From Halorubrum sp. 2020YC2 (GTDB taxonomy: Archaea > Halobacteriota > Halobacteria > Halobacteriales > Haloferacaceae): a stretch of DNA of 64,000 nucleotides. The DNA is taken from assembly GCF_018623055.1 (NCBI RefSeq), contig NZ_CP076019.1, positions 558,001-622,000 of the forward strand, written 5' to 3'. A program made the translations under genes and the position numbers. The notes under the pieces are model-generated. The model was not told the origin of the DNA. It did no database searches and worked only from the letters and a program-made list of their open reading frames with translations. Each line of letters starts with the position of its first letter. Positions within the stretch are counted from its first letter, which is position 1. Positions 4,861-60,475 of this stretch are shown here, one piece after another.

Positions 4861-5243
4861 GAACACCTCCAAAGCGCCAGCTGCTCGGCCATACGTCGGT
4901 GAATACCTATCGACGGCGAACACCTCCAAAGCCCCAGCCGCGAGGGCCGCGCACACTCGTTGTGCTCCTCACTCGCTCACTCCGTTCGCTCCCTGCGGTG
5001 CTTACGTCGTCTGCGCGGCCCTCGCGGCAGCGAGACGCTACGCGTCTCTGGCAGCCGGCGGCGAAGCCGCCGGCGACTGCCCCTTTAAGTCCCGCCCCCG
5101 ACCGCACAGCGACCGCGCCTCGTGCCTCCCCAGCCTCGTCAGTCGCCTCCGCTTCGCTCCGGCGACTGACTCCCTCGCGCGTGCGACTCGCGCCCTTCAG
5201 GCGCTCGTCGGCACGCGCCGACCGCGAGGATTCGCTTATAAAT
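4861..5243 (+). repeat. Structured dispersed repeat, copy 1
   Basis: This copy fills most of the 447-bp gap between the convergent Nudix and DUF371 genes. The head motif GAACACCTCCAAAG occurs twice (4861 and 4918), as if the head module was duplicated. Stem 1 is perfect over 17 bp (4937-4953 with 5012-5028). Two extra hairpins lie just after it (GAGACGC/GCGTCTC and CCGGCGGC/GCCGCCGG). The linker CTGCCCCTTTAAGTCCC follows. Stem 2 is GTCAGTCGCC/GGCGACTGAC, and stem 3 is GCGCGTGCGAC/GTCGGCACGCGC. The copy ends in CTTATAAAT at 5236-5243. Reading frames across it in several frames are considered spurious. Confidence 0.9.
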
Positions 5244-5259
5244 AACTGAACTCTCCGCC

Positions 5260-5745
5260 TCACTCGGCCGGGTCGACTTCGAGCCGCAGCGTGAGGTCGG
5301 CCCCGTCGACCAGCGCGGCGACGAGGTCGCGGTCGAGGTCGGCCGCGGCGCCGTCGCCGTCGACGAGGATCGTGCGCTCGTCGTCGGTGTAGTCGCTCGT
5401 GCGGCCGACCATCGAGCGGTCGTCGAGCAGGGTCAGGTCGGGGTCGCCGCGGCCGGTGATCGTCTCCTCGTACGTCTTCTCGGCCGCGTCGACGACGAGC
5501 GTCGCCTCGATCGTCGCGTCCGCGTCCCGACACGCCTGGCGGAACTCGGTCGAGAAGTCTCGGGGGGTCCGGTCCGCCTCGATCCCGACGATACAGTCGC
5601 CGGCGGGGGTGAGCCAGTCGTCCGTCGTGAATTCGACCGTGCTCGCGTGCTCGGCGGTGACGTTCTCGTGGCCGGTCGCGCGGACGACCTCCACCAGCGG
5701 GTCGTCGGCGCCGATCCGCGGGGGGTCTGCGTCCTCATCGCTCAT
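5260..5745 (-). CDS. DUF371 family protein
   Basis: This 161-residue protein carries GHENVTAEHASTVEFTTDDW and GDCIVGIEADRTPRDFS, the conserved N-terminal signature of archaeal DUF371 proteins. No biochemical function is established for the family. The start at 5745 (MSDEDAD) is used; the longer frame adds an unrelated RRGRPT segment. It is convergent with the Nudix gene, and copy 1 of the structured repeat lies between them. It is on the same strand as the upstream amidohydrolase, 79 bp away. Confidence 0.85.
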   Translation of the reverse strand: MSDEDADPPRIGADDPLVEVVRATGHENVTAEHASTVEFTTDDWLTPAGDCIVGIEADRTPRDFSTEFRQACRDADATIEATLVVDAAEKTYEETITGRGDPDLTLLDDRSMVGRTSDYTDDERTILVDGDGAAADLDRDLVAALVDGADLTLRLEVDPAE

Positions 5746-5824
5746 TGTCGTCGGTCGGCCGCGGCGCGACAAGTGCGCGTCGCTTCGACGGCGAGGGGGG
5801 ATCCCCGTGCGGCGGCCTCCGCGC

Positions 5825-6655
5825 TCAAACGTCGGCGCCCTCGGCCAGCGCGGGGACGAGGCGGGCGGGGTTCTTCGCCAACACGCGCCGCATCAGGTCC
5901 TCGGAGACGTCGAGGGTGAGCACTTCCATCACGCCGACGTTGGGGTGGACGTCGGGCGCGCCGGAGCCGAAGAGGACGCGGTCCGGGTGTTCCAACACGC
6001 CGCGTTCGAGCACCTCGCGGTACCGCACCGCGCTCGTGTCGACGTACAGGCGGTCGTGGTCGTCCAGCAGATCCAGCGTCCGGTTCATCAGTTCGGCGTC
6101 CAGCGGGTAGCCGCCGAAGCTCCCGAGGACGAGCGGGAGGTCGTAGCCGAGCAGCTCCGTCTCGACCGCCTCGGGCGGGAACTCCCGGCCCGCGTGGACG
6201 AAGAGGGGGAGGTCGGCGTCCTCCAGTCGGCGGAGCACGTCCTCGTCGGGGAGGCCGTCGACGTGCGGAGCGAGCGTGAAGCCGTGGAAGCGGTCGTCGT
6301 AGGAGTACTGCTCGACGTCGTCCGGCCGGGTGTGGTGGTCGTCGCGCTCGGCGCGGAGGTTCCGGACGGCCGACACGGGTCCAGTCCCCGGGTCGCGGGG
6401 ACCGTTGAGGCGGGCGAACGCGACGAACGGGCGGTCGATTGACAGGCGCGCGACGGCGTTGTTCGCGCGGAGGTAGCTCCGGCCGGTAGCCCGCTGGCCG
6501 GGGCTGGCGACCGCGCGGACGATGCCCGCCTGGAGCATCTCGCGTTCCAGCCGCTCCGGGGAGATGTCCCGCCCGTGGGTGGCGACCGACGACTCGTCGG
6601 GGTCGAGGGTCGCGCGGGTGTCGACGATCCGGAAGTCGTGTTCGAGCCCGAGCAT
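5825..6655 (-). CDS. Amidohydrolase-like TIM-barrel protein
   Basis: This 276-residue protein resembles the amidohydrolase-2/TatD-like superfamily: an N-terminal strand IVDTRATLD, a central PLFVHAG strand, a DRLYVDTSAVRY strand and a C-terminal DRVLFGSGAPD strand followed by NPARL. The usual HxH metal motif after the first strand is replaced by DTRATLD, while a His (FVHAG) and an Asp (GSGAPD) remain at expected strand ends. It may therefore bind metal differently or not hydrolyse. Substrate is unknown. It lies between ychF and the DUF371 gene, all on the minus strand. Confidence 0.75.
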   Translation of the reverse strand: MLGLEHDFRIVDTRATLDPDESSVATHGRDISPERLEREMLQAGIVRAVASPGQRATGRSYLRANNAVARLSIDRPFVAFARLNGPRDPGTGPVSAVRNLRAERDDHHTRPDDVEQYSYDDRFHGFTLAPHVDGLPDEDVLRRLEDADLPLFVHAGREFPPEAVETELLGYDLPLVLGSFGGYPLDAELMNRTLDLLDDHDRLYVDTSAVRYREVLERGVLEHPDRVLFGSGAPDVHPNVGVMEVLTLDVSEDLMRRVLAKNPARLVPALAEGADV

Positions 6656-6748
6656 CGGCGCTCTCTACCGGCCCGTCTCGGTCGACCCGGATGTGCCTGT
6701 CGGTCGTGCGACGAGTCCGTGCCACGCGCTAGCGCCGCCCGGTCTCGA

Positions 6749-58506: not shown

Positions 58507-58563
58507 GGACGACGAGCGGCCGCCCGCCGGAAGGCAAAAGCGTGCGCCGCCCCTACCGGGCGC

Positions 58564-59013
58564 ATGGAACTCGACGAGACGGACCGGGCGATCCTGCGAA
58601 TCCTTCAGGAGGACGCGCGGACACCGTTCTCGGAGGTCGCTCGTCGGATCGACATGTCCAGCGCGACCGTCCACGACAGGGTCAGCCGCCTCGAAGAGGC
58701 CGGCGTCATCCGCGGGTACCACGCCGACGTCGACCCGAAGGCGGTCGGCCACGGCGTCGGCGCGTTCGTCGGCCTGCGCGTCGAGCAGGGCCGCGAGGAG
58801 GACGCGCTCGAACGCCTCCGCGGCATCGACGGCGTCCGCGAGATCCACCTCACCACCGGGGAGTGGGACGTCATCCTCCGGGTCGTCGCGGCCGACACCG
58901 ACCGGCTCCGAGAGCTGATGTTCGAGCGGATCGCGGAGACGGAGGGGTTCTCGCGCTCGCAGACGATGGTCATCTTGGGCACCGACTACGAGCAGCCCGG
59001 CCCGCCGCTGTAG
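58564..59013 (+). CDS. Lrp/AsnC family transcriptional regulator
   Basis: This 149-residue regulator has an N-terminal winged helix ([20 protein letters not shown] with [20 protein letters not shown] as the HTH) and a C-terminal RAM domain ([20 protein letters not shown] through [10 protein letters not shown]). It should form dimers or octamers that sense amino acids. The target is not clear; the closest neighbour is the PPS gene 58 bp upstream on the same strand. No clear autoregulatory palindrome is visible. Confidence 0.92.
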
Positions 59014-59120
59014 CGGGACGCGGACCGCGCCGTCGAGACGGGCGGCGACGCCGGCGTCAAACGGCGCCGCGCTCGCTCGGGACCGGAACGCTCAACTCGG
59101 GACCTCTCCGAACGGTGACC

Positions 59121-60278
59121 ATGAGCACAGGTGTCGCGGACGGGTTCGACCCGTCGCCGGAGCGCGCATGGGCGGCGGTCGTGGGAGGCGTCACGGCGCT
59201 GCTGGCGCTCGGGTCCGTCGTCTTCCCGCGCGTCGTCTACGACCGCTTCCTCTGGCGCTACTTCTGGGGACCGGTGGTCGCGGACGGCGAGGGCGCGCAG
59301 TGTGCGGTCCGCGAGGTCGGCGGCACCACGGAGCTGCTCGGGAGCGGCGCGGCGTGTCAGTCGGCCGCCAGCGCCGGCGAGGTCGTCGCGACCCCGGGGT
59401 ACACGACCTTCTCGACGGTGAGCTACGTGGTGATCCTGCTGGCGATGCTGATCGGCGTCGTCTTCCTGCTCCGCCGGCTCGACATCGCGACGGAGCTCCG
59501 GTTCTTCTACGCGCTGTTCCCGTTCATGCTGTTCGGCGGGGCGATGCGGACGGTCGAGGACGCGGGCGTGGCGGCGACCGCCGCGGGCGTCGAACCGCTG
59601 ATCGGCTTCCCGGCGAGCGCGCTGCTGATCAGCCCGTTCATCTACTTCACGGTGTTTTTGTTCACCCTCGCGTGCGTCGTCACGGCGTACGCGCTCGAAC
59701 GCCGCGGCGTCGTCGACGACTACGCGCGCCCGCTGTTCGCCTCGGGCGCCGCCGGGCTGGCGCTCGCGGTCGGCTACCTCTCGTATCTCGCCGTCGCGAC
59801 CGACTACGTCGAGTTCTACCCGCAGGTGCTCGTCCCGACGCTCGTCATCGCGACGCTCGCGACCGCGGGCACGTGGGCGCTGGCGACCCGGCGGATTCCG
59901 ACGCTCCGGCAGGGGACCGGCGCCGCGGGGATCGTGATCATCTGGGGCCACGCGATAGACGGGGTCGCGAACGTGATCGGACTCAACTGGATGCCCGCGC
60001 TGACCGACACCGCGAACCTCGTCCCGAAACACGTCGTCAACGCGCTGATCGTCGACTGGACCGGGCGGCTCCTGCCGGACTCGATCCTCGCCGTCACCGG
60101 CGACGCCTGGCCGTTCCTCCTCGTGAAGCTCGCGGCCGCGACGTTCGTCGTTTGGGTGTTCAACGGCGAGATGTACGAGGAGTCGCCGCGGTACACGCTG
60201 CTGCTCCTCATCACCGTCCTCGCGGTCGGACTCGGGCCGGGCACGCGGGACATGCTCCGCGCGACGTTCGGGGTCTGA
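59121..60278 (+). CDS. DUF63 family membrane protein
   Basis: This 385-residue protein has about eight membrane helices. [20 protein letters not shown] and [20 protein letters not shown] are characteristic DUF63 patterns with conserved Arg and His/Asp. Function is unknown across archaea. A luminal loop near residues 50-90 contains two Cys that could form a disulfide. The ATG at 59121 is preceded by GGTGACC; a Shine-Dalgarno GGTGA lies three bases upstream but is weakly spaced. Confidence 0.85.
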
Positions 60279-60314
60279 ACCGGGCGATTCAACGCCCGCT
60301 GCGACTCAACTGAC

Positions 60315-60475
60315 CGTTTAAAAGGCGGACGGCGCGCCGCGTCGCGCTCCCGCCGGGGCGCGACGCGAACGCGAGGGAGGCGAGCGGGCCGCGCGGCGCC
60401 GTCCGCGCGGCCCGCCCGCCGAGGCTGGGGAGGCGCGAGGCCGTGCCGCCCTCGGCCGGCGCGGCTTTATACGGA
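60315..60475 (-). repeat. Structured dispersed repeat, half copy 7
   Basis: Only the second half of the element is present on the minus strand. The CCTCGCGCCTCCCCAGCCTCG block is followed by a long GC stem (GGGCCGCGCGG type) and GCTCGCCTCCCTCGCG. The head, stem 1 and the CCCCTTTGAG linker are missing. TTTAAAA (60317-60323) marks the right end. CTTTATACGG at about 60466-60475 marks the other edge and probably serves as the promoter of the next gene. Confidence 0.7.

Follow-up and report, generated by a model that had tools for sequence, protein, structure and literature searches.

Which kind of element is the structured repeat scattered over a short part of the Halorubrum sp. 2020YC2 chromosome, and does its fold operate in RNA or in DNA? 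The stretch analysed here (in the following: the window) has a length of 64,000 nucleotides and corresponds to bases 558001-622000 of the single 3.06 Mb contig NZ_CP076019.1. An initial annotation of its letters had reported seven copies, one of them a half copy, of a non-coding repeat in both orientations. All of them were found by sequence, the full copies at 4861, 8021, 23201, 38633, 39581 and 56744. The copies belong to a repeat family that is spread through the order Halobacteriales and is very abundant in Halorubrum. What can be said most safely about this family is that its fold is maintained while its arms vary freely. The data support that the paired arms are under selection or active upkeep. 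Regarding its function, we tentatively favour a structural fold-back element acting at the DNA level and of mobile ancestry.

Anatomy and covariation of the repeat

On the plus strand, a full copy starts with TTTATAAAT, followed by approximately 30 nt containing GGATCGACGGYGAACAC, the A box (CTCCAAAGCCCCAGCCGCGAGG), stem 1, the inner part of which is structured, and the B box (CCTCGCGGCTGCCCCTTTGAGTCCC). Downstream of the B box lie a C-rich linker, the C box (CCTCACGCCTCCCCAGCCTCG), hairpin 2, CTCCCTCG and hairpin 3, which is closed by GCGCGTGC/GCACGCGC; TTTATAA often comes next. The element, with its variable arms, measures about 250-330 bp. A total of 106 copies of the genome were examined in detail. 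GCCCC is kept at A in 101 and at B in 100 of 105 copies, the C box in 90. With a loose pattern, the linker CCC-N-CCC was detected in 97 of the 105 copies and in 50 of 65 units from other genera.

Pairing of the arms was analyzed in an alignment of 105 distinct rows, in which 93.6% of 3505 cells contained standard pairs, compared to 80.5 ± 0.4% after shuffling. Two-sided changes occurred in 28 of the 35 pairs, and 446 cells were changed on both sides versus 129 in the shuffled control. When the partners were slid by 1-3 columns, pairing fell to 34-45%. This alignment had been fitted to a covariance model and is hence biased toward structure; an unfitted MAFFT alignment of 28 copies agreed with it, since 19 of 35 pairs were changed on both sides. 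A home-made, R-scape-like simulation preserving the tree was performed with 76 copies, after removal of 29 of the 105 rows that form a subfamily out of register in the alignment. Of 13,203 column pairs, four were significant at an expectation (E) value < 0.05, all of them within the structure. Thus, both the shuffled control and the tree-based test back the earlier suggestion that paired changes next to conserved linkers reflect selection for structure, be it selection proper or active upkeep.

The variable stem-1 arms of the window copies and the change of the outer pair from CCAAAG/CTTTG to CCGAAG/CTTCG in copy 4 read exactly as the initial annotation had described them. Throughout Halorubrum, CAAAG/CTTTG and CGAAG/CTTCG are the forms of the outer pair; GAAAG/CTTTC or GGAAG/CTTCC replaces them elsewhere. 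Its complementarity was preserved in all 65 units from other genera, for which the search pattern had left the combinations free. Hairpin 3 could be parsed in 91 of the 106 copies. Its outer triplets (GAC/GTC, TCC/GGA, TGC/GCA, GGT/ACC) surround a fixed TC (GA on the minus strand), present on the 3′ side in 90 and on the 5′ side in 70 of the 91 copies. At an orthologous insertion site with a shared left flank (L221, L222, L232), the arms of hairpins 2 and 3 are wholly different yet self-complementary. This comparison was made by eye on an alignment of 12 out of 16 motif-bearing relatives, including L229, whose hairpin 2 contains an N. Covarying base pairs fit an RNA, but a DNA fold accounts for them equally well.

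Many copies are more complex than the basic plan. Extra upstream A units, each consisting of a TATA-like box and an A box, precede 64 of the 106 copies (e.g., L031, L034, L012), with a spacing of exactly 57 nt in 69 of 97 cases; other spacings include 54, 51 and 63 nt. A coding function was rejected, as the array was open in just 18, 20 and 26 of 64 arrays across the three frames and the A-B length of uninserted copies varies out of frame. As judged by eye, some copies contain inserted double-hairpin modules. In many loci of this genome (e.g., L007, L040, L041) such modules are found at various positions within the element; they have short fixed linkers (e.g., CTGGCAG, TTGGC, AACCACG), perfect variable arms and commonly 3-nt loops, and are reminiscent of palindrome-targeting SMRs.

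Copies in the window

For the covariance model, 28 copies of this genome were used, including three from the window. It matched the six full copies, of which those at 8021 and 38633 lie on the minus strand and the other four on the plus strand, with E values from 1.7e-42 to 8.8e-21.

4861..5243, plus strand: copy 1, placed by sequence, motif positions and the covariance-model match at 4919-5094
8037..8314, minus strand: copy 2, core 8118-8283, hairpins 2 and 3 down to 8037, 5′ TTTATAAA at 8307-8314
23201..23525, plus strand: copy 3, 5′ TTTATAAA at 23201-23208, core 23232-23450, hairpins 2 and 3 to ~23525
38648..38932, minus strand: copy 4, core 38734-38902, hairpins 2 and 3 down to 38648, 5′ TTTATAA at 38926-38932
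39583..39890, plus strand: copy 5, 5′ TTTATAA at 39583-39589, core 39614-39783, hairpins 2 and 3 to ~39872, 3′ TTTATAA at ~39884-39890
56746..57095, plus strand: copy 6, TTTATAAAT at 56746-56754, core 56808-57013, hairpins 2 and 3 to ~57095
60324..60440 (approximate), minus strand: half copy, C box 60420-60440 plus hairpins 2 and 3

Copy 1 is preceded by a degenerate unit with its A motif near 4867. The A box (4924-4944) and stem 1 follow, a double hairpin is inserted at 5028-5076, the B box begins at 5077 and the C box occupies 5118-5138. Behind hairpin 2, hairpin 3 ends at ~5219, and TTATAAAT is located at ~5236-5243. Copy 2 lies between the starts or ends of two minus-strand genes that by position and similarity are ychF-like and drg-like. 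Copy 3 belongs to the TCGCG subfamily, and its stem 1 is interrupted by a double hairpin (23318-23363). A 20-bp tandem repeat (4.5 copies of GCGCCACCGCAGGACCGACA; 23521-23610) extends from its 3′ end. Copies 4 and 5 flank an msrA-like gene (38972-39511, minus strand), whose product is 91% identical to MsrA of Halorubrum (Hrr.) coriense and Hrr. sodomense. In copy 6, TTTATAAAT sits about one unit further upstream than in usual copies. The half copy is devoid of the A/B part and is not among the 150 covariance-model matches listed for the genome. Apart from the repeat family, a perfect 28-bp tandem repeat (three copies, 11163-11247) was noticed behind a gene.

Copy number and placement in the genome

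A first DNA search, in which 40 of 260 candidate places were scored, gave 78 rows. With the covariance model, the number of copies in the genome was estimated at about 140-150: at least 150 matches were obtained, 137 of those listed having E < 1e-10, though a few neighbouring matches may represent one copy. The listed matches are dispersed along the contig and distributed over both strands (82 versus 68). None of the 106 copies overlapped a gene called by a simple home-made gene caller. For 103 copies both neighbouring genes were available; 39 copies had convergent, 46 co-directional and 18 divergent neighbours, while 208 other gaps comprised 28 convergent, 138 co-directional and 42 divergent ones. 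Convergent gaps are thus enriched for copies (39/103 versus 28/208, Fisher p 1.9e-6). In co-directional gaps the orientation of the element was not biased (28 versus 18, p 0.18).

Distribution in haloarchaea

A search of Halorubrum and other haloarchaeal genomes, as proposed in the initial annotation, revealed a wide distribution. The DNA query matched all 22 other genomes of the genus and 4 more matched the covariance model (26 of 26); two named Halorubrum loci, L122 and L125, gave no match. Within the order, 75 of 117 sampled genomes were positive at E ≤ 1e-3. They represent 33 of 48 genera, so that relatives of the element reach most of the sampled genera; among the named neighbours with the element are Halohasta litorea, Halolamina rubra and strain HArc-gm2. 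From the 75 genomes, 12 high scorers were chosen and their loci searched again, and 21 distant loci were read. They have in common GAAAGCCCC or GGAAGCCCC, a long stem, GCCCCTTTC or GCCCCTTCC and then AGTCCCRCCC. Inverted AB units of other genera form end-like arms. In three genomes (G047, G048, G094; L307-L319) and in Halohasta litorea (L132), AB units are arranged as tail-to-tail inverted pairs, and at L291/L319 and L109 the outer flanks are complementary as well.

The element hardly occurs outside main chromosomes. Only 8 of 72,556 plasmid records matched, one from Halorubrum and others from genera including Halobaculum, Halorussus, Haloarcula and Natrinema, at a score at which the query recognised 105 of the 106 own copies. 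Using TnpB as a probe, at least eight Halorubrum plasmid records were identified; six of them total 1.80 Mb, for which about 88 copies are predicted at chromosome density, and one was found. A ParA-like protein was a poor probe for this denominator (two records only). In the genomes G008 and G022, all 150 matches listed (237 in all) were located on the chromosome contig, which makes up approximately nine tenths of each genome. Phage records gave no match at E 0.01. A viral origin was rejected, as the sole match in viral contigs, searched with an exact pattern that diverged copies could escape, lay in unrelated low-GC sequence lacking all other parts of the element.

Site history and possible partners

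Comparison with relatives revealed filled and empty sites, as a mobile origin would allow. At the position of copy 1, three of 20 relatives (L225, L229, L230) have a gap of 35 bp between the nudix-like and the 5260-like gene. The interval is also a swap site: L222 and L232 contain two small genes there which, by eye from the DNA, are toxin-antitoxin-like, and other relatives carry yet other genes. The gap between ychF and drg (copy 2) contains element motifs in 16 of 20 relatives, 12 of them well preserved, and none in L223, L238, L239 and L240. Both copies beside msrA recur in place in Hrr. sodomense, where the upstream one is a short match, and in Halorubrum sp. GN11; Hrr. coriense keeps one of the two. 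No target duplication was recognisable at the two sites with empty relatives, whose boundaries are fuzzy. Outside one segmental duplication, the best pairs among the 106 copies (25 best listed) were at most ~90% identical, and recent copies were not seen. The segmental duplication (L267, ~1413440; L275, ~2520861) spans at least 1 kb at 99.5% identity, with an element in both stretches.

No partner transposase was found. The Y1 transposase (PF01797) is absent from six genomes rich in copies (G016, G134, G123, G047, G029, G118), and a further genome (G079) with ten Y1 matches had no element match. A copy lay within ~1.5 kb of three of the 15 own TnpB loci, about 2.4 being expected by density. 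As judged by these genes, a partnership with IS200/IS605 transposons was rejected, as was membership in the REP/RAYT system.

Fold in DNA or in RNA

The composition of the pairs and loops provides hints on the working molecule. Wobble pairs were rare on both strands; the regular copies contained 2406 Watson-Crick pairs, 21 G-U pairs on the plus strand and 48 A-C cells, which are equivalent to G-U on the minus strand. In tRNA arms taken as a control, 8 of 192 pairs were G-U. GNA forms a stable DNA mini-hairpin loop, and GNA centres were present in 132 of 232 triloops on one strand or the other, whereby a single hairpin may count more than once. Between its two-base stems hairpin 1 has steps that, like the fixed step of hairpin 3, read TC/TC on the plus strand, where they cannot pair, and GA/GA on the minus strand, where tandem GA pairing is possible. 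Seen from the minus strand, the linkers carry G-tracts in place of C-tracts.

From these properties we infer a role at the DNA level, exerted by the G-rich minus strand either as a cruciform or when single-stranded. This strand would form two additional hairpins besides a long one that has tandem G.A steps and G-tract collars. What selection or active repair would retain is the capacity for folding back, not the sequence of the arms. Positioned between genes, preferably convergent ones, the element may serve as a structural boundary, i.e. as a supercoil sink or as a barrier to transcription or replication forks, as has been suggested for REP/BIME repeats. Its ancestor was probably a hairpin-bearing mobile element, which moves rarely today.

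Some observations weigh against this interpretation. The tRNA control for wobble pairs is small. The preference for the minus strand is not decisive because the excess of A-C cells rests on three pairs, which contribute 28 of the 48; the remainder is 20 versus 20. The minus strand folded at lower energy in all 87 of the 106 copies for which energies were determined, but the z-scores against shuffled sequences (30 copies) do not favour it (RNA, -4.57 plus and -3.88 minus; DNA, -3.93 and -3.77), indicating that composition explains the difference. Templated mutation could restore pairing without any function. Finally, 64 of the 106 Halorubrum copies have a TATA-like box ~30 nt upstream of their core, which would fit an RNA start at the conserved edge.

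Alternative explanations

The TATA-like box speaks for a multicopy structured non-coding RNA, an explanation that we regard as possible but rather doubtful. Halorubrum copies would then possess their own TATA promoter, sometimes in tandem, and transcription of the plus strand would start at the GAACACC edge. The motifs TTTATA, TTATAA or TATAAA occurred at -50 to -20 with a peak at -30/-31, while 31 of 1060 windows of the same 30-nt size in the flanks contained them, a background that is low because these windows include coding sequence; the downstream scan covered 100 of the 106 copies. Repeats of 56-58 bp in HF2, with a TATA box starting at -26, are described as proven promoters (PMC8707807), and by their geometry the start would fall ~4-5 nt before the core. 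The unpaired linkers are also conserved to the same degree as in functional RNAs. However, 64 units of other genera share the fold without a TATA motif within 70 nt upstream, and the box is thus not part of what the family shares. The scarcity of wobble pairs and the conserved TC/TC steps, which do not pair on the plus strand, do not suit an RNA either. Rfam yielded only two tRNAs for the window, and for copy 1 at E up to 5 a single sub-threshold match (21.3 versus 55 bits), in agreement with the initial annotation, in which no known family had been named. Its proposal of a new RNA or a mobile element holds in part: the TATA box in Halorubrum and the filled and empty sites speak for one or the other, whereas the missing TATA box elsewhere and the rare wobble speak against the RNA, and the lack of recent copies, target duplications and a partner transposase against a mobile element.

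That the element is still mobile without a transposase of its own, PATE-, MITE- or SMR-like, and is moved in trans as single-stranded DNA, is unlikely. Besides the sites that are occupied or empty depending on the species, the inverted pairs in other genera would fit this explanation, and the near-end palindromes and inserted hairpin modules recall SMR-targeted PATEs (PMC3119063). But the divergence of the copies argues against a recent spread, and the distribution of Y1, the near-chance proximity to TnpB, the scarcity on plasmids and the negative phage search count against ongoing transposition. The least probable explanation is that the repeat has no function, templated repair or template switching keeping the palindromes perfect and old copies being tolerated at convergent ends. 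Wholesale change of arms with perfect pairing, scarce wobble intermediates and a placement where insertions harm least are what it predicts; repair of palindromes fails, though, to explain the conserved unpaired linkers (GCCCC, C box) and a core common to the families. A more far-reaching reading of the repeat, which is quite unlikely, is a predicted potassium-stabilised quadruplex-duplex hybrid, in which the tandem-G.A hairpin joins four G-tracts (GGGG, GGGG, GGG-Y-GGG). It would constitute a new order-wide class of elements selected for structure that gained a promoter in Halorubrum, so that at least 100 loci per genome might switch or report via one fold.

If the DNA-level reading is true, each Halorubrum chromosome bears about one folding element per 20 kb which has been overlooked by tools for genes, RNAs and transposons. 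Haloarchaea are not known to possess well-described intrinsic hairpin terminators, and the element is a testable candidate for separating convergent genes in these organisms. Its hundreds of natural compensatory changes are material for asking whether the cell selects a DNA or an RNA fold.

Comparison with known systems

REP and BIME sequences are intergenic, high-copy palindromic repeats, often situated at gene ends, for which roles in topology and termination have been proposed. REPs comprise 20-40 bp of conserved sequence and usually have a RAYT (Y1) transposase in the genome. The haloarchaeal element differs from them by its length, its variable arms and the several high-copy genomes without Y1. 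This comparison draws also on PMC12306157. The rPQS of Methanomicrobiaceae resemble the element in being interspersed, intergenic and neutral in orientation, with a G-rich strand adjoining a hairpin; approximately half of them lie between convergent genes, and their authors prefer a role at the DNA level (PMC8044849). They are unrelated in sequence and length, and contain one short block of G-runs instead of three covarying hairpins. Such G-rich sequences are reported to be under-represented in many high-GC Halobacteria, but the loop limit of 1-5 nt applied there would miss the element (PMC8044849).

In the literature consulted no description of the element was recognised; its nearest counterparts are the rPQS and the PATEs and SMRs, and it may possibly coincide with a PATE family. 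PATEs occur with 177 and 194 copies in two Haloquadratum walsbyi strains, and one plasmid is stated to lack SMRs (PMC3119063). Like the element, PATEs and SMRs are haloarchaeal, without a transposase, high in copy number and heterogeneous, and have palindromes near their ends. They cause no target duplication, and for the element none was recognised at the two sites with empty relatives. The palindromes of PATEs take up inserted small repeats as the element takes up hairpin modules (PMC3119063). On the other hand, PATE ends resemble those of IS605-type transposons, while no clustering of the element with TnpB or Y1 genes was observed. What separates the element from the PATEs, as far as they are described in the sections considered, is its order-wide spread, its covarying arms and its three-hairpin plan (PMC3119063).

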